NCBI RefSeq assembly: GCF_016595495.1
Contig: NZ_JAENIM010000039.1
Span: forward strand, 62,001-126,000
Direction: 5' to 3'
DNA length: 64,000 nucleotides
Source: Persicirhabdus sediminis
Lineage (GTDB): Bacteria; Verrucomicrobiota; Verrucomicrobiia; Verrucomicrobiales; Akkermansiaceae
The position numbers were made by a program, and so were the translations under genes. How positions within the stretch are numbered: the stretch's first letter is position 1; the number at the start of each line of letters is the position of its first letter. Below, piece by piece: positions 5,693-63,638 of this stretch. The notes beneath the pieces were generated by a model that did no database searches, had not been told where the DNA came from, and was given only the letters and a program-made list of their open reading frames with translations.

Positions 5693-5768
5693 GCCGGTTT
5701 AGCTCAGTTGGTAGAGCAACTGATTTGTAATCAGTAGGTCGTCGGTTCGAATCCGACAACCGGCTCCA
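5693..5768 (+). tRNA. tRNA-Thr(TGT), copy 1
   Basis: A 76-nt cloverleaf with encoded CCA. Acceptor stem GCCGGTT/AACCGGC, anticodon stem CTGA/TCAG with loop TTTGTAA (anticodon TGT), T-arm GTCGG-TTCGAAT-CCGAC. It reads ACN codons ending in A, and probably G. The sequence is identical to the copy 274 bp downstream. Confidence 0.97.
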
Positions 5769-5966: not shown

Positions 5967-6042
5967 GCCGGTTTAGCTCAGTTGGTAGAGCAACTGATTT
6001 GTAATCAGTAGGTCGTCGGTTCGAATCCGACAACCGGCTCCA
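5967..6042 (+). tRNA. tRNA-Thr(TGT), copy 2
   Basis: All 76 nt match copy 1, including CCA. The flanks are similar but diverged (for example TGAAGATACTGCGCCCGCC is shared, while the linker to the tRNA differs), showing an old tandem duplication of promoter, tRNA and terminator with selection keeping the tRNA intact. Confidence 0.97.
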
Positions 6043-19613: not shown

Positions 19614-20690
19614 ATGAAACGAATAGGTGTGCTAAATAGCGGCGGCGATTGCCCAGGGCTGAATGCAGTGATTCACGGTGTGGTGGGTGCTGCTAGCCAG
19701 ATGGGGATTGAGGTTGTTGGTATTAAATATGGCTTCGAGGGGCTGCTAGCGCCAGCGTCATACCGCGTGCTTACCCCAGCGGATACCATTGGTATCTTAC
19801 AACAAGGGGGGACGATTCTCGGCACCACCAATAAAGGACATTTTATTTCTAAGCTCGGCATGGGCACGCCAGAGGAAATTTCCAAAGGCATCATAGAAAA
19901 TGCTCGTGGCACGATGCAGCAGCTATCGCTAGACGCCCTAGTTGTCATTGGTGGTGACGGCTCGCTGACTACCGCGCTGCAGCTCTACCGTGCTGGTTTC
20001 CCTGTGGTAGGGGTGCCTAAAACCATTGATAACGATCTGCTAGCTACGGCGCGAACCTTTGGGTTTGATAGCGCTTGTGCCATGGTGGTGGATGCACTTG
20101 ATAGACTGCAAACCACCGCGCAGAGCCACGAACGGGTGATGGTGCTAGAGGTGATGGGACGTCACGCTGGCTGGATCGCCATGTGGGGCGGTATCGCCGG
20201 CGGCGCTAACGTCATCTTGATTCCAGAGCTGGAATATGATCTCGATAAAGTGGCTGATTTCATCAAACAGCGTGACGCCGACGGCTATAAAAGCACTCTG
20301 GTTGTGGTGGCTGAAGGTGCTCACCTGCCAGAAGGGGGACTATCCACTCGCAGCGGAAGTGCTGGCGCTGAGGTTAGACTTGGTGGCATTGGCGAAATTA
20401 TCGCTCAAGAACTAGAAGTCCGCACTGGTAAAGATACGCGCGCTTGTGTACTAGGTCACCTGCAACGCGGAGGCCAACCCACTGCGCTGGATCGAATCAT
20501 CGGTGCACGTTTTGGGGTTAAGGCTGTGAAGTTAGCTGCCGAAGGTGGCTTCGGTCGCATGGTAAGCTACGATGCTTATCGTGTGGTATCCGTGCCTATC
20601 GAGGAGGCTGTTCACCAGCTGCGCCGCGTGCAAGATAACGGGGAGATTGTCGAGACTGCTAGAGCGATCGGCATTCACCTCGGACAATGA
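19614..20690 (+). CDS. pfkA: 6-phosphofructokinase
   Basis: Phosphorylates fructose-6-phosphate in glycolysis (cytosol). 358 residues. MKRIGVLNSGGDCPGLNAVI is the nucleotide-binding start, GGDGS lies at 113-117, PKTIDND at 135-141 (Asp139 catalytic), and VMGRHAGW and GHLQRGGQPTALDR follow. Gly at the GGDGS position points to ATP as donor, while Lys136 (PKTIDND instead of PGTIDND) is typical of the group III enzymes known from actinomycetes and PPi-using relatives. So ATP use is likely, but PPi cannot be excluded from sequence. Its TGA overlaps the ATG of the next gene (ATGA), giving a coupled operon with an Lrp-type regulator. Confidence 0.93.
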   Translation: MKRIGVLNSGGDCPGLNAVIHGVVGAASQMGIEVVGIKYGFEGLLAPASYRVLTPADTIGILQQGGTILGTTNKGHFISKLGMGTPEEISKGIIENARGTMQQLSLDALVVIGGDGSLTTALQLYRAGFPVVGVPKTIDNDLLATARTFGFDSACAMVVDALDRLQTTAQSHERVMVLEVMGRHAGWIAMWGGIAGGANVILIPELEYDLDKVADFIKQRDADGYKSTLVVVAEGAHLPEGGLSTRSGSAGAEVRLGGIGEIIAQELEVRTGKDTRACVLGHLQRGGQPTALDRIIGARFGVKAVKLAAEGGFGRMVSYDAYRVVSVPIEEAVHQLRRVQDNGEIVETARAIGIHLGQ

Positions 20691-49706: not shown

Positions 49707-50012
49707 TTAGGCGTTAGGGTCAATACCCATGCCACGCAGTTTACCTTGTTCATCTTCGATGCGCTCAGCCAGCCATTGTTTCATCATCGACTGGTAGTTG
49801 AGGTGGCGCGAGCGAGCGAGCCGCTTGATGCGTGAGAGCATGCGAGGATCGAAGCGCAAAGTGATAGTTGTAGAATCTCTCACTGTAGGCGAGTGGACTG
49901 AGCTGTTCATCAATGATGGCGAGAGCTCGTGGTCTTGCCAAAATTTGGCTTCATCCTCAGGTGAGGCAAATTCTGGAATGTCAGTCCATTTGTTGATGAC
50001 GGTAAGGTCCAT
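49707..50012 (-). CDS. CopG/BrnA-like antitoxin
   Basis: 101 residues. The N-terminal part (IPEFASPEDEAKFWQDHELSP) is the toxin-binding signature of this antitoxin family. The C-terminal ribbon-helix-helix (ITLRFDPRMLSRIKRLARSRHLNYQSMMKQWL) binds DNA, probably repressing the pair. Gene order toxin-antitoxin (toxin upstream, 26 nt gap) matches BrnT/BrnA-type modules. Confidence 0.88.
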   Translation of the reverse strand: MDLTVINKWTDIPEFASPEDEAKFWQDHELSPSLMNSSVHSPTVRDSTTITLRFDPRMLSRIKRLARSRHLNYQSMMKQWLAERIEDEQGKLRGMGIDPNA

Positions 50013-50038
50013 AATGATAGAAACTGGCTAAGTGGTTG

Positions 50039-50317
50039 TTATTTGAACTCCGCGTATTTGCGCTGGTAGAAGTTGGCTTCAGAGCTGCTCATTTCGCGAG
50101 CGGCGTAGACTTTGGCCTCTTTGCCATTGGTCCAGAAACAGATAAATAAGTCTCTGCCTGTAATCGAACGGCCAATCATGTAATAACGAACTTCACCGTC
50201 GGCGCGCTCGTGGTCTGGTAAGAACTTCAAAGCAAAGGGATCTTCCATGACCTCTTCAATTTCTCCAGGGGTGATGAATTTTAAATCGAAAGTGGCGTAG
50301 GTGAGATCGAGTTCCAT
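50039..50317 (-). CDS. BrnT-like toxin
   Basis: 92 residues. The core RYYMIGRSITGRDLFICFWTNGKEAKVYAAREMSSSEANFY matches the BrnT/HigB-like RelE-superfamily ending R-x-M-x3-E-x3-Y, characteristic of ribosome-dependent mRNA endonuclease toxins. The N-terminus has IEEVMEDPFALKFLPDHERADG, the usual family opening of a helix before the sheet. First gene of the pair. Confidence 0.82.
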   Translation of the reverse strand: MELDLTYATFDLKFITPGEIEEVMEDPFALKFLPDHERADGEVRYYMIGRSITGRDLFICFWTNGKEAKVYAAREMSSSEANFYQRKYAEFK

Positions 50318-50486: not shown

Positions 50487-51836
50487 ATGAACCACAGTGA
50501 AATTTTAAGCGTATTGGAGCAAGCCGGTGTGCGCCCATCCAAGAAATTAGGACAGAATTTTTTAACTGATGCCAATGTGGCTCGGTGGATTGTGGATCAG
50601 CTCGACCCGCAGCCGGATGATACCGTGCTGGAAGTGGGCCCGGGAACGGGTGCGCTGACGGAGAATTTGGTAGGGCGAGTGAAACGTATTATCTTAGTGG
50701 AATTTGACGCCCGTCTGGCGGAATATTTGACCAAGCGATTTGCCGACCGCGACGACGTGGAAGTGCATCACGCGGATGGTGCGCGTTTTGATCCTCGTGT
50801 CTTGTTCAAACATTCACCGGTGAAGTTTCTCGGCAATTTGCCTTACTCAGCAGGTGGCGCCATCATGCGCAATTTCATGAAACGTCCGACCATGATCAGC
50901 AAGGCTGTGCTGATGTTGCAGAAGGAGTTTATTGATCGCATTGTCGCCAAACCGCGCACTAAAGAATATGGTGTGCTTTCCCTGCGCATGCAGAGCGAGT
51001 GGAATAGCAAGCCGCTGAAAACCATTCCACCAGAAGCCTTTTTCCCTCGTCCATTGATTGATTCCACCGTGATGCTGTGTGAGCCGCGTCCGCAGGATCT
51101 GCCAGTTTATGATGCCCGTTTGTTTGACGAGCTCGTGCGCCGCGGATTTGCCCAGCGCCGCAAACAAATCAAAAAACAAATGCCAGCTGAGCCAGCGTGG
51201 GATGTGGTTGCTGAAAAAGTTGGCCTGCCACTGACCGTGCGCGCAGAAGAGGTGACGCTCGATCAATGGGTGGAACTTACCCGTGAATACGACGATCATC
51301 CGCTGAAAGACGTGGCGCAAAAAGGCGACGAGCTTTTTGATGTGGTTGATGAAAATGACGAAGTCGTTGGGCAACAAATAAGAGACGTCGTGCATCGTGA
51401 TGATTTGCGACACAGAGCGGTTCATATTTTGGTGTTCAACAAACGCAAAGAAGTTTTCCTGCAGAAGCGTTCGCGCTTGAAAGATAAATTCCCATCACGC
51501 TGGGATTCTAGCGCAGCTGGCCACCTCGACAGCGGTGAAGCATACGACGCCTGCGCGGTGCGTGAGCTGGCTGAGGAAATGGGCATTGAGAATGCTGAAG
51601 TGCAGATGATTGATAAAATCGACGCTTGTGAGCAAACTGGCTGGGAATTTGTGGGTGTTTACGTGGCCCGTCACGATGGTGCTGTACGTTATTCATGCAG
51701 CGAAGTTGAGTGCGGGTTATGGTTATCTATGGCTGACGTGCGCGACTGGATTGTCGCTCGCCCAGAGGATTTTGCTCCTGGATTTATGGCGGCTTGGAGT
51801 CGCTTTGATGTAAAACTCGGCCTGTCAGCTGGATAA
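50487..51836 (+). CDS. rsmA: RsmA (KsgA) 16S rRNA dimethyltransferase fused to a Nudix hydrolase
   Basis: 449 residues in a single frame. Residues 1-265 form RsmA, which dimethylates two adjacent adenines near the 3' end of 16S rRNA: KKLGQNFL, the SAM loop EVGPGTG (49-55), and catalytic NLPY (117-120). Residues about 282-449 form a Nudix domain of the isopentenyl-diphosphate isomerase / YfcD-like type: DELFDVVDENDEVVG, then the Nudix box G345-x5-E351-x7-R359-E360-L-x-E-E364-x-G366. Such a fusion is unusual; most RsmA proteins end near 270 residues. The linking segment (265-282) is short and polar. Nudix substrate unknown. Confidence 0.93.
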   Translation: MNHSEILSVLEQAGVRPSKKLGQNFLTDANVARWIVDQLDPQPDDTVLEVGPGTGALTENLVGRVKRIILVEFDARLAEYLTKRFADRDDVEVHHADGARFDPRVLFKHSPVKFLGNLPYSAGGAIMRNFMKRPTMISKAVLMLQKEFIDRIVAKPRTKEYGVLSLRMQSEWNSKPLKTIPPEAFFPRPLIDSTVMLCEPRPQDLPVYDARLFDELVRRGFAQRRKQIKKQMPAEPAWDVVAEKVGLPLTVRAEEVTLDQWVELTREYDDHPLKDVAQKGDELFDVVDENDEVVGQQIRDVVHRDDLRHRAVHILVFNKRKEVFLQKRSRLKDKFPSRWDSSAAGHLDSGEAYDACAVRELAEEMGIENAEVQMIDKIDACEQTGWEFVGVYVARHDGAVRYSCSEVECGLWLSMADVRDWIVARPEDFAPGFMAAWSRFDVKLGLSAG

Positions 51837-55260: not shown

Positions 55261-55288
55261 AAAAAACGAGGCACCCGTGGGTGCCTCG
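55261..55288 (-). terminator. Terminator of dsbD
   Basis: CGAGGCACCC (55267-55276) pairs with GGGTGCCTCG (55279-55288), with an A-run at 55261-55266 giving a U-run on minus. It lies 50 nt after the TAA at 55338-55340, which supports that the gene ends there and not at the UGA at 55599. Confidence 0.9.
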
Positions 55289-55337
55289 TCTGGATTCAGC
55301 AGTGGATTTCGCCACTAGCTAGATAGGATGATGAATA

Positions 55338-57599
55338 TTATTTGGCAGCCAGCTCGAGCGCCTTGAGCACATCGTCTGGGCTGATATTTTGTGGCAGCAT
55401 GATCGCTGGCTTCGACGGATCCGCTGGGAAGATTAAGTTGGTTGGCAAACTACTTCGGCCCACTCTGGCGAGATCATTTTTGATCGCCTCGTTACCGTCG
55501 GTCCAGTCAGCGACGACTAGGGCGACATTAAGTTCTTCGAGTTTGGCAGTTACGGCATCTGATGAGAAGACACGCTTCTCGTTGGTTTTACAAATCAGTC
55601 ACCAATCGGCGGTGTAATCCAGCCAGACAATCCTGCCTTTTGACCGGCTGAGCTCGACCACTCCGGGGTACCAGCTGTGTTCGCTAGCAGTGGTGGGCGC
55701 GCGGTAGCTGGTGGCATCTTTGGCCATCAATAAACCAGCGCTGGCGACGATGACGGGGAAACCAATGCCCCAGACGTATTTCTTGGATTTTTTGGTCACT
55801 GGAGTGCCATAGCGTCCAAATGCCCACGCGGCTAGTGACAGAATCACCAGCGCCATGATCAGCCAGAATGCGCCGTCAGTTCCTGTGATGTTGATGAAGC
55901 TGAGGTAGAAATAGGCGGCAGTGGCAAAGAGGGCAAATGCCATCAGCTGCTTGAAGGTTTCCATCCACGCGCCTGGGCGAGGTAGTTTCTGAATGAGCTT
56001 GGGCATGAATGCCAGCGCCACGTAAGGCAGGGAAATGCCGAGCGCAAAGATGGTGAATAAGAACATGCCGGTGAGCGGCGGTTCTTTTAAAGTAAATGCC
56101 AAAGCTGAGCCGAGGAAGGGTCCGCTACATGGGGTGGCAATCAGCGTGGTGAGTACGCCTGAATAAAATGAACCAGAGTAGCCTTTTTTCATCTGTAGCT
56201 GGCCGCCAGCGCTAGTCAGCGAGGTGCCAATTTCAAAAACTCCAGCCATGCTCAGACCAAACAGGAATAGCAAAATAATCATGCCCGCTAGGAATGGTGG
56301 CTGGGTGAGTTGCTCGCCCCAGTTGATGTCCTGACCGTAAAAATGGATCAGGCCAAAAATCGTGCCGGCCAGAATCCACATCGATGCCACCAGACCAGTC
56401 ATGAAGACCAGCCCGTGCAGGCGGATCTTAGTGGCGTCTTCGCCAGCTTGTTGAACAAACCCCATCACCTTGAGGCCAAGCACAGGAAAGACGCAGGGCA
56501 TTAGGTTGAGCAGAAATCCGCCAATGAACATGAAGATGACGGCGGTGAGAATGGTGAGTTCTTTTTCTTCTTCACCACTTAGCAAAACGTAGGGGACCTT
56601 GGCGTTGACGTCGTAAAGTTTAGCGGCAGCCGCACGGTCAGCCTCGCTAGCAATCTGGCCAGACCCGTGAGCTGAATTTCCAGCTGGCTGATCTGCTGAA
56701 GCCGTGGTGGCTGCGGTGTCATTAGTAGCTGGCTGATCTTCAGCGCCAGCGAGTGGTAAATTTACCAGCAATCCGTGTTCATCAAAGCCAGCTAGGATTT
56801 TCCCTTTGCTGGCGAGAATGCCTTCCAGTTGGCTGGCTGGACCAGCATCTACATTGCGCTCGATGGTCAAGGTGCCAGCGGCAGCGTCCCACACCTGTGC
56901 GGCGCTGGCTACGGTGAGTTTTTTGTCGTCGTAATAGTACAGAGATTCAAGAGCAGATAAATCAGCGCCAGCTAGCGTGATGATGAAATGGCTGTCACTC
57001 TGGCTAGCTGAAATCTGCAATGATTTCTGCCACTCAGCTGGCTGGATAGGTAGTTCATTTCTAGCCGTCTCAATGGTGGCTGCGTTGTCATCGTTGAGCA
57101 CTGATTCGCCACCATGCTTCAGTGTGATGGAAAATTCACCACTCTGCGGCATGTCGCACGCCGAGTCGTTACATACTTGCCAGCCTAGCTTGAGGTCAAT
57201 CTGGCTCTGCTCACCGACGAGCTCAGCTGGCGAGGTGATCTTAGTGAGGAAATAGTTTGTATTTTCGTAGGTATATGATGTTTCGCCAAACAAAACCGTG
57301 GTGTGTGGCACGGGCCATTCTACTGGCTCGTGGGTAAATCCAGCGGGCAACTGCCAATCAAATTCTAGCGGTAAGTTAGAGCCGCCAGGGTTCTTGTAAT
57401 ATGAATGCCAGCTGGCGGAATGGGAGATCTCAGTAGCGACGATGAAGCTGGAACCAGCGGAAATCTGATCGTGGTCACTGAGTAGCTTGACGGTGGTTTT
57501 TTGCGCCAGCTTATCGCCAAAGCCAAATTGGCCAAAGCTTGCTGTAGCGCTGAAAATCAGCCAGCTGAAGGTGATGGTTAGAAGTTTGAAAGCAGTCAT
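55338..57599 (-). CDS. dsbD: Thiol:disulfide interchange protein DsbD with probable selenocysteine (in-frame UGA)
   Basis: 753 residues if UGA at 55601-55599 is read as Sec667. It moves electrons across the inner membrane to periplasmic thiols. A signal peptide opens the protein. The N-terminal immunoglobulin-like domain has C143 and C148 (VCNDSACDMP). The membrane domain has the conserved C369 (NLMPCVFP) and C491 (IATPCSGPF). The thioredoxin domain has LDYTADW-U-L-I-C670-K, where other DsbD have DWC-x-x-C. After the UGA the frame continues with ADWTDGNEAIKNDLARVGRSSLP (cis-Pro) to a TAA just before a terminator. Selenocysteine is inferred from position, intact downstream frame and a hairpin after the UGA. 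A nonsense mutation is the main alternative. Confidence 0.85.
55559..55598 (-). promoter_or_regulatory. Candidate bacterial SECIS element in dsbD
   Basis: Directly after the UGA on the minus transcript: CUGAU pairs with AUCAG (outer stem) and GAGAAG pairs with CUUCUC (upper stem, 6 bp), leaving apical loop CGUGU. The loop starts 24 nt after the UGA and has G at its second position, as the published bacterial SECIS pattern demands (16-37 nt, G in the first two loop positions). A 13-nt unpaired stretch lies on the 5' side only. Confidence 0.75.
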
Positions 57600-59542: not shown

Positions 59543-61231
59543 TTATTCAACAATCACGGCTTTTGGTGGGCCGCTGAGGATTTTTTCTATCAATTGAGCT
59601 GTGGCTTTTTGCACGCTTGTGGCATCGCCAATTTTTTTGCTGCGGTCGTAGCCTAACCAAAGAGCTGCTGAGTAGTCGCGGCAGCTAGAAATCGCCCAGC
59701 TGTCGTGCCCTGAATTGGTCACGCCAGCTAGCGTGTGTGATTTATTTACCAATGGCAGCGAGTTTAGCGCATCTGCAGCTGCACCTTCGTGAATGGCTTG
59801 AGTGAGTGAACTAGTGCCAGTGTAAACAACCTGACCGTGCGCATTTCTAATTTCTTTGATTAGATAGGGCTTGGCGCGTTTGCCTGAGTTCTGCAGTGTT
59901 GCCGTAGCAATGGCTAACTGGTCGGTGTTGGCTGCCAGACTGCCGCGGAATAGGTCTTCAGTTTCCGGCATGTCATTTTTAAAACCGAGGCGACGGAAAA
60001 TTCTAACTGCTTCGCTTGGGCCAATTTGTCTACCGGTCTGCAATGGTTTCCCTTTGATAGGTAGTTTGTTGCGCTCGCGTGCGGCGGCATGAAGGAAGGG
60101 TTCAAATAGCGGGCCAATATCGCGGCTAGTATTATAAGCGCGGTTATACTGGCTCACTTTATAATCGCGGCTGCCAATCATGCTGAGCACACTGCCGTCT
60201 TTGGGCTGCAGCACCATCAGTGAGCCCTGTAAGGCTGAGATCTCACCGCTCTCAATACCAGAAATTGGCTGGGCAAAATATTTCTCAGCGCGCAGTTGCA
60301 TTTCCCCATCAAGCGTGGTGACGATGGTGAGTGCGCCATCACGAATGTCGTTGCGTTCAAGGATTGTTTCCAGCTGGCGCTGAACGGCGCGCGCAATGAA
60401 TGTCTGGCTAGCTCTGTTACCTTCTGGGTCAGCTAGACCGATAGGTAGACTTGTGATAGTTGAGATATCCGCAGATTTGATGTAACCCTCGGCAACCATG
60501 CGCGCGAGCACATCATCACGTTGGTTCATCGCGCCCTCTAGATTGCGAAATGGCGAGTAGATATGCGGGCCTCTAATGATGCCAGCTAGGATAGCACATT
60601 GATTGGTGTTCAGTTGGCTAACGGATTTGCCAAAGTAAGTTTCTGATGCTTCTTCGATGCCGTGACAGCCAGCGCCAAAATAGATGCGGTTAAGGTAATG
60701 AGTGAGGATTTCATCTTTGCTATAGCGAGATTCAATGCGCAAGGTGATAGCGATTTCTAGCAGTTTCCTGTGGATCGATTTGGCGCGGATATCAAAGGTA
60801 TTGCGCGCTAACTGCATGCTTAGCGTCGAGGCTCCCTGGGTGAATGATCTATCTTTGATGTTACGCAGTGTGGCTCTAGCTAGGCCTTTTACATCTACGC
60901 CCCTGTGCTGGTAAAACCTTGAGTCCTCACGTGCGACTAAGGCGTTGACCATGTCCTTGGGAATCGCCTCGCGCTCAATTAGTTGACGACGTGTGCCTGC
61001 TAGACTGCCAATTTCCTTGTTGTATCTGTCTAGCAGAACGGTGCGGGCTGGAATTTCAGCCACCTCGTCGAGGTCGTATTTCAGAGAAATGAAAAAGTAA
61101 TACAGGACAATAGCCAGCCCGATGAGGGCAAAAATACAGCTCCAGCGGACCAGCCAGAGTACTGGACCGCGAAGTCTGGAGCGCTGCCAGCGGGGAAATC
61201 TTGCGGGTGTATTTTCGGGTTTTCGAGACAT
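59543..61231 (-). CDS. Class A PBP homologue with intact transglycosylase but degenerate transpeptidase
   Basis: 562 residues, one N-terminal transmembrane helix (about 28-48). The GT51 domain has the catalytic Glu102 in REDSRFYQHRG and TQGASTLSMQLARN, so glycan polymerisation is expected. The transpeptidase domain is shortened and lacks its catalytic residues: the family GS-x-F-K-P-F reads GPLFEPF (P374 for Ser, E377 for Lys), SxN is lost in a deletion of about 60 residues, and KTG reads V-T-N (504-506). I infer a glycosyltransferase with a structural or regulatory C-domain. It follows the intact homologue with about 100 nt gap; the two are probably paralogues. Confidence 0.88.
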   Translation of the reverse strand: MSRKPENTPARFPRWQRSRLRGPVLWLVRWSCIFALIGLAIVLYYFFISLKYDLDEVAEIPARTVLLDRYNKEIGSLAGTRRQLIEREAIPKDMVNALVAREDSRFYQHRGVDVKGLARATLRNIKDRSFTQGASTLSMQLARNTFDIRAKSIHRKLLEIAITLRIESRYSKDEILTHYLNRIYFGAGCHGIEEASETYFGKSVSQLNTNQCAILAGIIRGPHIYSPFRNLEGAMNQRDDVLARMVAEGYIKSADISTITSLPIGLADPEGNRASQTFIARAVQRQLETILERNDIRDGALTIVTTLDGEMQLRAEKYFAQPISGIESGEISALQGSLMVLQPKDGSVLSMIGSRDYKVSQYNRAYNTSRDIGPLFEPFLHAAARERNKLPIKGKPLQTGRQIGPSEAVRIFRRLGFKNDMPETEDLFRGSLAANTDQLAIATATLQNSGKRAKPYLIKEIRNAHGQVVYTGTSSLTQAIHEGAAADALNSLPLVNKSHTLAGVTNSGHDSWAISSCRDYSAALWLGYDRSKKIGDATSVQKATAQLIEKILSGPPKAVIVE

Positions 61232-61340
61232 TTCTATCAGTGCTCAGCGAGCTGAGCTAGAGATGTAGCCAGTTTGGCGAAATTTGCCAATGAATTTATA
61301 CGTCGAAAGCTACTGCTACGTACGCTCATTCAGCCATTTT

Positions 61341-63638
61341 TTAGCGCACGGGAATGGCTCTTGGCGCCCGCTTGTTTTCGTTAACTGGCTGCGCTTTTGA
61401 GGGATGGAATGGGCAGAACTCGTGCTGACCAGGAAGCGTATCGGCTGGTGCCTCTGTGGTATACGCGCTGCCTAACTTCTCGCATTCCTTGGTCGCTCGC
61501 TTGGCCGACCAGCGACATAGGCGAGCTTGTTTCATCGCCATTGGCGGGTTGAACGAGCCAGCTGCATAACCAACCTCATCGGCTTCTTTGATGATATCGA
61601 TCCAAATTGGCAGAGCCAGTGTAGAGCCGTATCCGCGGTCAATCGTTCTCTGCGGCTGGTCCATGCCGACCCAAACTGAGCAGGTCACGGCTGTAGTGTA
61701 GCCGGCAAACCACGCGTCCTGATAGTTGTCTGTGGTGCCGGTTTTGCCAGCTGCTGGTGAGCTGAACTTTGATTTGATCGCCGCGCCAGTTCCGCGCTGG
61801 GCAACTTTTTGTAAGACCTTGTTAGTTTCCCAAGCTGCACCACGTGATGCCGCTGAGTACACCAGTTTGCTATTGCGGTAGAGTACCTGGTCGCCATTGC
61901 GGATTTCTTGGATCAAATACGGACGGTAGCGCTCGCCATTGTTAGGGAAGATGGTATAGGCGCTAGCCACTTGCCATGGTGTGGCTTCCCATGACCCAAG
62001 GTAGGCCGCTGGTGTATTGGGCAGTTTCTGGGTGAATCCAACATCGTTAGCTGTGGTATGCACGCGATCCATTCTCGCAAAATCACCGACCCTAACAGAT
62101 GACGTGTTGCGCGAGCGAATCAATGCCTCCTCAGCAGTGACATACTTGTAATATTTGCCATCGCTATTGCGTGGGTTCCAACTGCGCTGCGCCCCTTTAA
62201 TTTCGCCGGGGCGAAGTGGGGTGTCGCGAATCCACGTTTGCGCCTGCATGCCGTTATTAAATGCCGTTAGGTAGACAAAGGGTTTAAAAATTGAGCCTAT
62301 TTGGCGTTTCGCGTATTTAGCGCGGTTGAACATAGATTCATCGGCATCGCGGCCTCCAACAACTGCGAGCACAGCACCACTGCGGTTTTCAATGACAACC
62401 GCTGCGCCTTGAATATATTTTGGTGGTTTGGTTTTTTCTGGCTGAGCTGTTTTTAGATAGTGTTGGTACTGGCTGCGAGTTTGGTGGTTGTAGCCAGGTT
62501 TGCGCTCTACCGTGCGTAGGTGTTTTTCCATCGCCCTCTCAGCTGCTTTTTGAATGTTATGGTCGATGGTGGTGATGATTGTTAGTCCGCCAATGTCGAT
62601 GCGCTCGTCTTCCAAAATAAGGTCGAGGTCGCGGCGAATCGCATCCATGGCATAGGAACCTTGAGCCAAACGACGGTCTTCTGGACGAATCTGTAATTTC
62701 TCAGTTTTGGCCTGATCGGCTTCTGCTTGGGTGATGAATTGATTGTCGACCATGCGCGCCAGTGTGGTATCGCGCTCGCTGGTGGCTCGTTCGATGCTGC
62801 GGAATGGTGAGAATGAGTTAGGTCCGCGAATGATGCCAGCTAACATAGCGGCTTCACTCAGTGTTAGATCTTTGGCGGATTTCTCAAAATAGGTACGCGA
62901 TGCCGCTTCGACTCCTCGCATATTGTGGCCCCAGAAGATGCGGTTCACATAATGTTTGAGGATTTCTTTTTTGCTGAAATGCGATTCGATGCGAAATGCT
63001 AGAGCGATTTCAAGCATCTTGCGGTCCAGTGATTTGAGTGCGCTCCCTTGGCCGGGTTTGGCCTGAATATCAAAGCTGTTACGCGCCAGCTGCATGGTCA
63101 GCGTAGACGCTCCCTGAGTCATTGATTTGTCTTTGATATCGCGCACGAGTGCTCGAGCTAGGCCAACTGGGTCGACGCCAAAATGGTAGTAGAATCGTGA
63201 ATCTTCTCGGGCTAACAATGCACTAGTGAAGTAATCTGATACTTCATCTAGCTCGACAAGCAAGCGGTTATCACCGTGCATACGGCCAATTTCTGTGCGC
63301 CTATCACTAGCGTAGATGATAGATCTAGCTGGCATTTCTTCAACTTGCTTGAGATCGAAATGGCTGGCGCGCAAAAAGTAGAAAGTGCCAACAATGATGC
63401 CGATAGAGCTGAAGATAAAACCAAATGAAAGTACAAGTCGCAGCGGCCATTTGATAAAGAAATTCAGCCTATCAGTGAGCCTGTTGATGAGTAAAAATGG
63501 AGCCGTTAGGACCTGTGGCAGCCAGCTAGATGACTTTCTAGATTTTTTACTATTCTTCCGCTTATTTGCCGATGAGCTGGCTTTTTTTCTAGCCGATTTT
63601 TTTTTGGCAGATTTTTTGGCTGTCTTACGTGGTGGCAT
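61341..63638 (-). CDS. Penicillin-binding protein 1A-type peptidoglycan synthase
   Basis: 765 residues, bifunctional glycosyltransferase and transpeptidase on the cell wall. A long Lys/Ser-rich cytoplasmic N-terminus (1-40) and one transmembrane helix (about 68-88) are followed by GT51 with Glu145 (REDSRFYYHFG) and TQGASTLTMQLARN. The transpeptidase domain has S449-x-x-K452 (GSIFKPF), S509-R-N511 (SRNTSS) and KTG 632-634 (GKTGTTDNYQDAWFAGY). All catalytic motifs are intact. A Cys/Pro-rich C-terminal tail (CRWSAKRATKECEK..EFCPFHP) may add disulfides. It is upstream of the degenerate homologue on the same strand. Confidence 0.95.
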   Translation of the reverse strand: MPPRKTAKKSAKKKSARKKASSSANKRKNSKKSRKSSSWLPQVLTAPFLLINRLTDRLNFFIKWPLRLVLSFGFIFSSIGIIVGTFYFLRASHFDLKQVEEMPARSIIYASDRRTEIGRMHGDNRLLVELDEVSDYFTSALLAREDSRFYYHFGVDPVGLARALVRDIKDKSMTQGASTLTMQLARNSFDIQAKPGQGSALKSLDRKMLEIALAFRIESHFSKKEILKHYVNRIFWGHNMRGVEAASRTYFEKSAKDLTLSEAAMLAGIIRGPNSFSPFRSIERATSERDTTLARMVDNQFITQAEADQAKTEKLQIRPEDRRLAQGSYAMDAIRRDLDLILEDERIDIGGLTIITTIDHNIQKAAERAMEKHLRTVERKPGYNHQTRSQYQHYLKTAQPEKTKPPKYIQGAAVVIENRSGAVLAVVGGRDADESMFNRAKYAKRQIGSIFKPFVYLTAFNNGMQAQTWIRDTPLRPGEIKGAQRSWNPRNSDGKYYKYVTAEEALIRSRNTSSVRVGDFARMDRVHTTANDVGFTQKLPNTPAAYLGSWEATPWQVASAYTIFPNNGERYRPYLIQEIRNGDQVLYRNSKLVYSAASRGAAWETNKVLQKVAQRGTGAAIKSKFSSPAAGKTGTTDNYQDAWFAGYTTAVTCSVWVGMDQPQRTIDRGYGSTLALPIWIDIIKEADEVGYAAGSFNPPMAMKQARLCRWSAKRATKECEKLGSAYTTEAPADTLPGQHEFCPFHPSKAQPVNENKRAPRAIPVR

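Follow-up and report, generated by a model that had tools for sequence, protein, structure and literature searches.

The described systems closest to the locus reported here are the DsbD protein of E. coli and several selenoproteins. E. coli DsbD has three domains with six redox residues forming three pairs, the cysteines of its N-terminal pair being spaced six residues apart. Among the selenoproteins, and according to the accessible parts of the respective papers, TsoB (NF045694), a rhodanese/DsbD fusion-like protein, contains two selenocysteines (Sec, U) in a UxxxxU motif (PMC13188914); a "Thiol:disulfide interchange protein" of family PF13098 with a UxxC motif is known from Geobacter and Syntrophus (PMC1794560, PMC13188914); and the Global Ocean Sampling survey of 2008 listed 22 UxxC sequences as "Trx-like 2 (thiol disulfide interchange protein)", cd02953, in a table row giving neither domain layout nor host (PMC2398784). 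The PF13098 protein and TsoB are included in a review from 2026 that covers 119 families of prokaryotic selenoproteins; in the accessible part of this review, and within the openly licensed literature, we found no full-length Sec-containing DsbD, DsbD being named once, for TsoB (PMC13188914).

The window, by which we mean the whole 64,000-nucleotide stretch of Persicirhabdus sediminis DNA analyzed here, carries on its minus strand an ORF that starts at 57599 and, under translation table 11, ends after 666 amino acids at a TGA (55599-55601). With TGA translated as a residue, the frame runs on to the TAA triplet 55338-55340; the coding sequence, further referred to as Sec-dsbD (55338-57599, minus strand, ATG at 57599), comprises 753 residues. 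Its sole TGA is codon 667 in the context DYTADW-U-LICKTNEK, at the first position of a UxxC motif with Cys670 as the partner. The initial annotation had placed the gene at 55599-57599, which takes in the frame as far as the UGA; the gene actually extends to 55338. The other elements it had described were recovered: the tail past U667 has 86 residues including ADWTDG and SSLP, and right behind the TAA lies a strong intrinsic terminator (55264-55291, minus strand; a 12-pair stem followed by a T run, the enclosing segment having -31.8 kcal/mol).

Three domains are combined in one chain, each above its Pfam gathering score: the periplasmic DsbD_N (PF11412, residues 48-154, 57138-57458 on the minus strand, 42.8 bits at a cut-off of 25), the membrane domain DsbD_TM (PF02683, residues 353-564, 55908-56543 on the minus strand, 61.3 bits at a cut-off of 27.1) and the C-terminal Thioredoxin_7 (PF13899, residues 642-725, 55425-55676 on the minus strand, 39 bits at a cut-off of 27). 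The 753 residues include exactly six Cys or Sec, two per domain: C143/C148, C369 (LMPCVFP)/C491 (ATPCSGP) and U667/C670. In domains and redox pairs the predicted protein resembles E. coli DsbD, with whose C-terminal domain (PDB 4ip6, 1uc7, 2fwe) its thioredoxin domain aligns along ADWC-x-x-CK; U667 stands opposite the first Cys of CVAC, which is where the initial annotation had seen the frame stop. It differs from the E. coli protein in having Sec as the first residue of the last pair and in the spacing of the N-terminal cysteines, five residues instead of six. The domain content confirmed the window gene as a predicted complete DsbD (thiol:disulfide interchange protein); it is homologous across its full length to loci of other genomes and is the only DsbD match in a search of the P. 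sediminis genome. The NCBIfam DsbD model NF001419 (PRK00293) gave 114.3 bits, below its curated cut-off of 330; since this model describes a narrow subfamily, the failure lowers membership in that subfamily and not in DsbD as defined by the Pfam domains.

With TsoB the window protein shares the DsbD-like membrane part, its residues 346-711 matching positions 177-529 of NF045694, whereas it has DsbD_N, no rhodanese match, and one Sec in UxxC. Assignment to TsoB was rejected because the score, 141.8 bits, is far below the cut-off of 805, which none of the 58 relatives passes. The PF13098 protein has the same name and the UxxC motif but is a Thioredoxin_2 protein, while the window protein consists of PF11412, PF02683 and PF13899, so that the two are set apart by family assignment only.

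The 64-kb window contains 22 candidates for UGA read-through, and Sec-dsbD alone among them combines a long 5' frame (668 codons) with 87 codons on the 3' side and a UxxC motif. This uniqueness, together with the alignment to the first Cys of the E. coli CVAC motif, argues that the UGA in dsbD is not there by chance. The other 21 candidates, which do not combine long frames on both sides with UxxC, were rejected as further selenoproteins within the window. The neighbors of dsbD (a Na/Pi cotransporter, a glycine-zipper protein and unrelated genes) yielded no operon partner, and at two homologous loci (L089 and L127) the neighbors are unrelated genes as well, so gene context gives no hint to function. 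Elsewhere in the window we observed a single fused frame of a KsgA-type rRNA adenine dimethylase and a NUDIX domain (50487-51836); an adjacent pair of class A penicillin-binding-protein-like genes (59543-63638), the first with a weak, partial transpeptidase match only; two tRNA-Thr(UGU) genes of equal score about 270 bases apart (5693-5768 and 5967-6042); and a CopG-type antitoxin gene with a small gene ahead of it (49707-50317), resembling a type II toxin-antitoxin pair.

Among the 58 relatives searched, nine, P. sediminis included, have UGA in DsbD (9/57 of the relatives with a DsbD), in each case as a single TGA, which always falls opposite U667 in the alignment. The remaining aligned relatives have TGC or TGT there, that is, the cysteine codon anticipated by the initial annotation. 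A scan of species genomes with a DNA pattern for D[FY]TAxW-UGA-xx-C[KQ] found 101 stretches, nearly all from Verrucomicrobiota or Planctomycetota (Verrucomicrobiales/Akkermansiaceae; Pirellulaceae and others), including one on the complete chromosome CP036526.1 of the planctomycete K23_9. Matches in Halomonas (L066) and Acidobacteriales (L091) were discarded as chance, their flanking frames having only 10-18 codons. In all 142 loci with both the membrane and the thioredoxin domain (some genomes being counted twice; 73 UGA rows are left without near-copies) the aligned codon is either UGA (95) or Cys (47) and never encodes a third residue; the 95:47 ratio is meaningless because the scan asked for UGA, and the informative points are the lack of any third residue and the occurrence of Cys among relatives that were not chosen for UGA. 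Judging by these alignments, a predicted DsbD with Sec in its active site is very probably also made by dozens of relatives among the Verrucomicrobia and Planctomycetes. Taking cd02953 to be the DsbD-gamma domain, we suppose that a part of this family has probably been met earlier as reads and that the ocean-survey sequences, as far as their table row tells, may belong to it.

The selA gene was found in all nine UGA relatives versus 18 of the 48 others (Fisher p = 5e-4), and no UGA dsbD was found in a relative without selA among the 57 relatives with a DsbD. A further set of 39 UGA genomes, most of them MAGs, had selA in 36 cases. When relatedness is considered, the selA-searched relatives provide three to four independent Sec/Cys contrasts, too few for significance of the association. 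In many relatives that possess selA the DsbD has Cys, so Sec is optional for the family; relatives without selA have a full-length Cys DsbD and not a short form.

We further determined the pattern of selection for the tail after the UGA. Ten pairwise comparisons between related Sec genes gave a dN of 0-0.14 versus a dS of 0.1-2.2 or saturation, demonstrating that the frame downstream of the UGA is under purifying selection; in place of the decay in related strains considered by the initial annotation, the relatives show a conserved tail with dN much less than dS. The UGA could in principle be a nonsense mutation or a sequencing error in an ordinary Cys DsbD, leaving a truncated protein and a remnant tail, and both the draft state of the genome (47 contigs) and the presence of only one DsbD in it would agree with that. 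But the UGA recurs at this codon in dozens of genomes that were assembled independently, CP036526.1 among them, it co-occurs with selA, and the tail is selected, which makes such an accident almost inconceivable; the initial annotation had also held a random nonsense mutation unlikely, and the singularity of the gene among the 22 candidates bears this out. Alternatively, the 666-residue product may be the functional protein and read-through minor or regulatory. The truncated form would retain the N-terminal and membrane domains, and termination at a Sec UGA competes with insertion in known systems; the conserved tail with its low dN/dS and the retention of full length with Cys, not of a short form, in selA-less relatives argue against this explanation, which we regard as very improbable.

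The Sec machinery that the initial annotation had proposed to look for is present in the P. sediminis genome (G000, a draft of 4.17 Mb in 47 contigs, 96.7% complete): SelA (6.6e-125), SelB and SelD (both above cut-off), and a tRNA-Sec with the UCA anticodon, which exceeds the Rfam gathering score and is called tRNA-Sec by ARAGORN. The selD gene (L020:1501-2424; G000:C29:4423-5346) has an in-frame UGA of its own at the catalytic residue (SCGG-U-ASKLDP), which makes selenophosphate synthetase another predicted selenoprotein of this genome. Genome-wide reassignment of UGA was rejected because UGA still terminates other ORFs, for example one that reads as phosphofructokinase-like and ends at 20690.

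Downstream of the UGA (55599-55601, minus strand) we predicted a bacterial SECIS hairpin (55564-55580, minus strand) with a stem of 6 bp, GAGAAG/CUUCUC, and the loop CGUGU, relying on the fold, covariation and a synonymous-codon control. The loop starts 24 nt past the UGA, and the 51 nt starting with the UGA have an MFE of -7.8 kcal/mol. The window hairpin (loop of 5 nt with G second, 6 bp, 24 nt, -7.8) lies within all the bSECIS limits in the accessible part of the review: loop 3-9 nt, stem 4-16 bp, G in the first two loop positions, spacing 16-37 nt and MFE -7.5 or lower (PMC13188914). In 31 distinct Sec genes of the window type 94.9% of cells are paired, a value reached in none of 500 shuffles, while versions with the partner slid are paired in 33-64%. 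Double-sided changes were seen in 27 cells of these genes, 14 of them being GC to CG at the loop-closing pair. Planctomycetes have a second hairpin type with the loop GGUC or similar. Under synonymous recoding the hairpin region of the Sec genes proved more stable than expectation (mean z -1.40, n=96), unlike that of the Cys genes (-0.15, n=21; Mann-Whitney p = 1e-5, the sequences not being independent), and Cys homologs rarely keep the hairpin pairs. The window hairpin by itself is not significant (z -0.88, p 0.22), being no stronger than its amino acids allow, so the SECIS signal resides in the family; according to the folds and recoding, a strong hairpin at this register is absent in a few groups (UxxC...NEQFVLHT type).

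The exchange of UGA and Cys alone would also be compatible with a tRNA-Cys(UCA), and more generally the UGA might be decoded by a suppressor tRNA or an altered tRNA that inserts Cys or a different amino acid. This is extremely improbable given that the UCA tRNA matches the tRNA-Sec model and is an ARAGORN tRNA-Sec, that the genome has SelA, SelB and a SelD with its own UGA, that a SECIS-type hairpin follows the UGA and that other ORFs still end at UGA. In our prediction there is a high probability that UGA 667 is read as selenocysteine, and insertion through SelB and the hairpin is strongly supported by these sequence features. The suggestion of the initial annotation that dsbD probably encodes a selenoprotein is supported by the machinery, the Cys homologs and the conserved downstream frame; the protein remains predicted. 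Overall, we assign a probability of about 0.96 to a full-length DsbD whose C-terminal thioredoxin domain has Sec in place of its first, nucleophilic Cys, the Sec being inserted through SelB and the hairpin and, as Sec667, taking part in the proposed electron relay.

On a 120-row tree (a quick one without bootstrap) we counted 10 Sec/Cys changes, at least seven of them on well-supported branches, versus 37 with shuffled labels. The window gene clusters with genes of Akkermansiaceae MAGs (support 99), and Pirellulaceae genes, that of K23_9 among them, are placed within a verrucomicrobial clade, which suggests transfer of Sec-dsbD between the phyla. This clade, of 30 Sec and five Cys rows, includes four nested Cys genes from two genera (g5 and g6), in which selA was not detectable. 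These nested genes are as expected for a reversion from Sec to Cys following the loss of the machinery.

Several other loci came up in the same searches. At two loci from two related genomes (L026 and L027) the gene directly after Sec-dsbD encodes a stand-alone DsbD-gamma-like protein (a 202-aa frame) with D-M-T-G in place of the active site U-x-x-C, apparently a redox-dead paralog next to the Sec enzyme. The Mariniblastus MAG g4_MAG_00002 has three thioredoxin-type UGA loci, two DsbD-like and one thioredoxin-like (L115, L116 and L118). Further thioredoxin-fold proteins with UGA-xx-Cys came from Poribacteria, Phycisphaerae and others (L072, L137, L101, L104, L107, L147); these are probably selenoproteins too.

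In the proposed mechanism SelB with Sec-tRNA(UCA) would bind the hairpin 24 nt downstream and Sec would be inserted at the UGA. By analogy with E. coli DsbD we infer that electrons would pass from cytoplasmic thioredoxin to the membrane pair C369/C491, then to Sec667/Cys670, to C143/C148 and finally to periplasmic disulfides. Under selenium shortage translation would end at the UGA, giving a protein without the third domain. The benefit of Sec is likely to be a faster exchange or resistance to overoxidation.

We consider it somewhat better than an even chance that Sec-DsbD is a widespread, uncatalogued family which makes the whole periplasmic reducing system of many Verrucomicrobia and Planctomycetes dependent on selenium, has moved between the two phyla and switches between the Sec and Cys forms according to whether a lineage retains or loses the machinery. 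Existing inventories would overlook it because the codon resembles a stop, and the thioredoxin domain is missing from annotations because standard gene calling truncates the gene at the UGA. Reducing power reaches the periplasm through DsbD, and since a sole DsbD was found in the P. sediminis genome, periplasmic reduction in this organism would hinge on the selenium supply. The nested Cys reversions in selA-less lineages may serve as a natural set for measuring the advantage of Sec over Cys in a well-understood electron relay.
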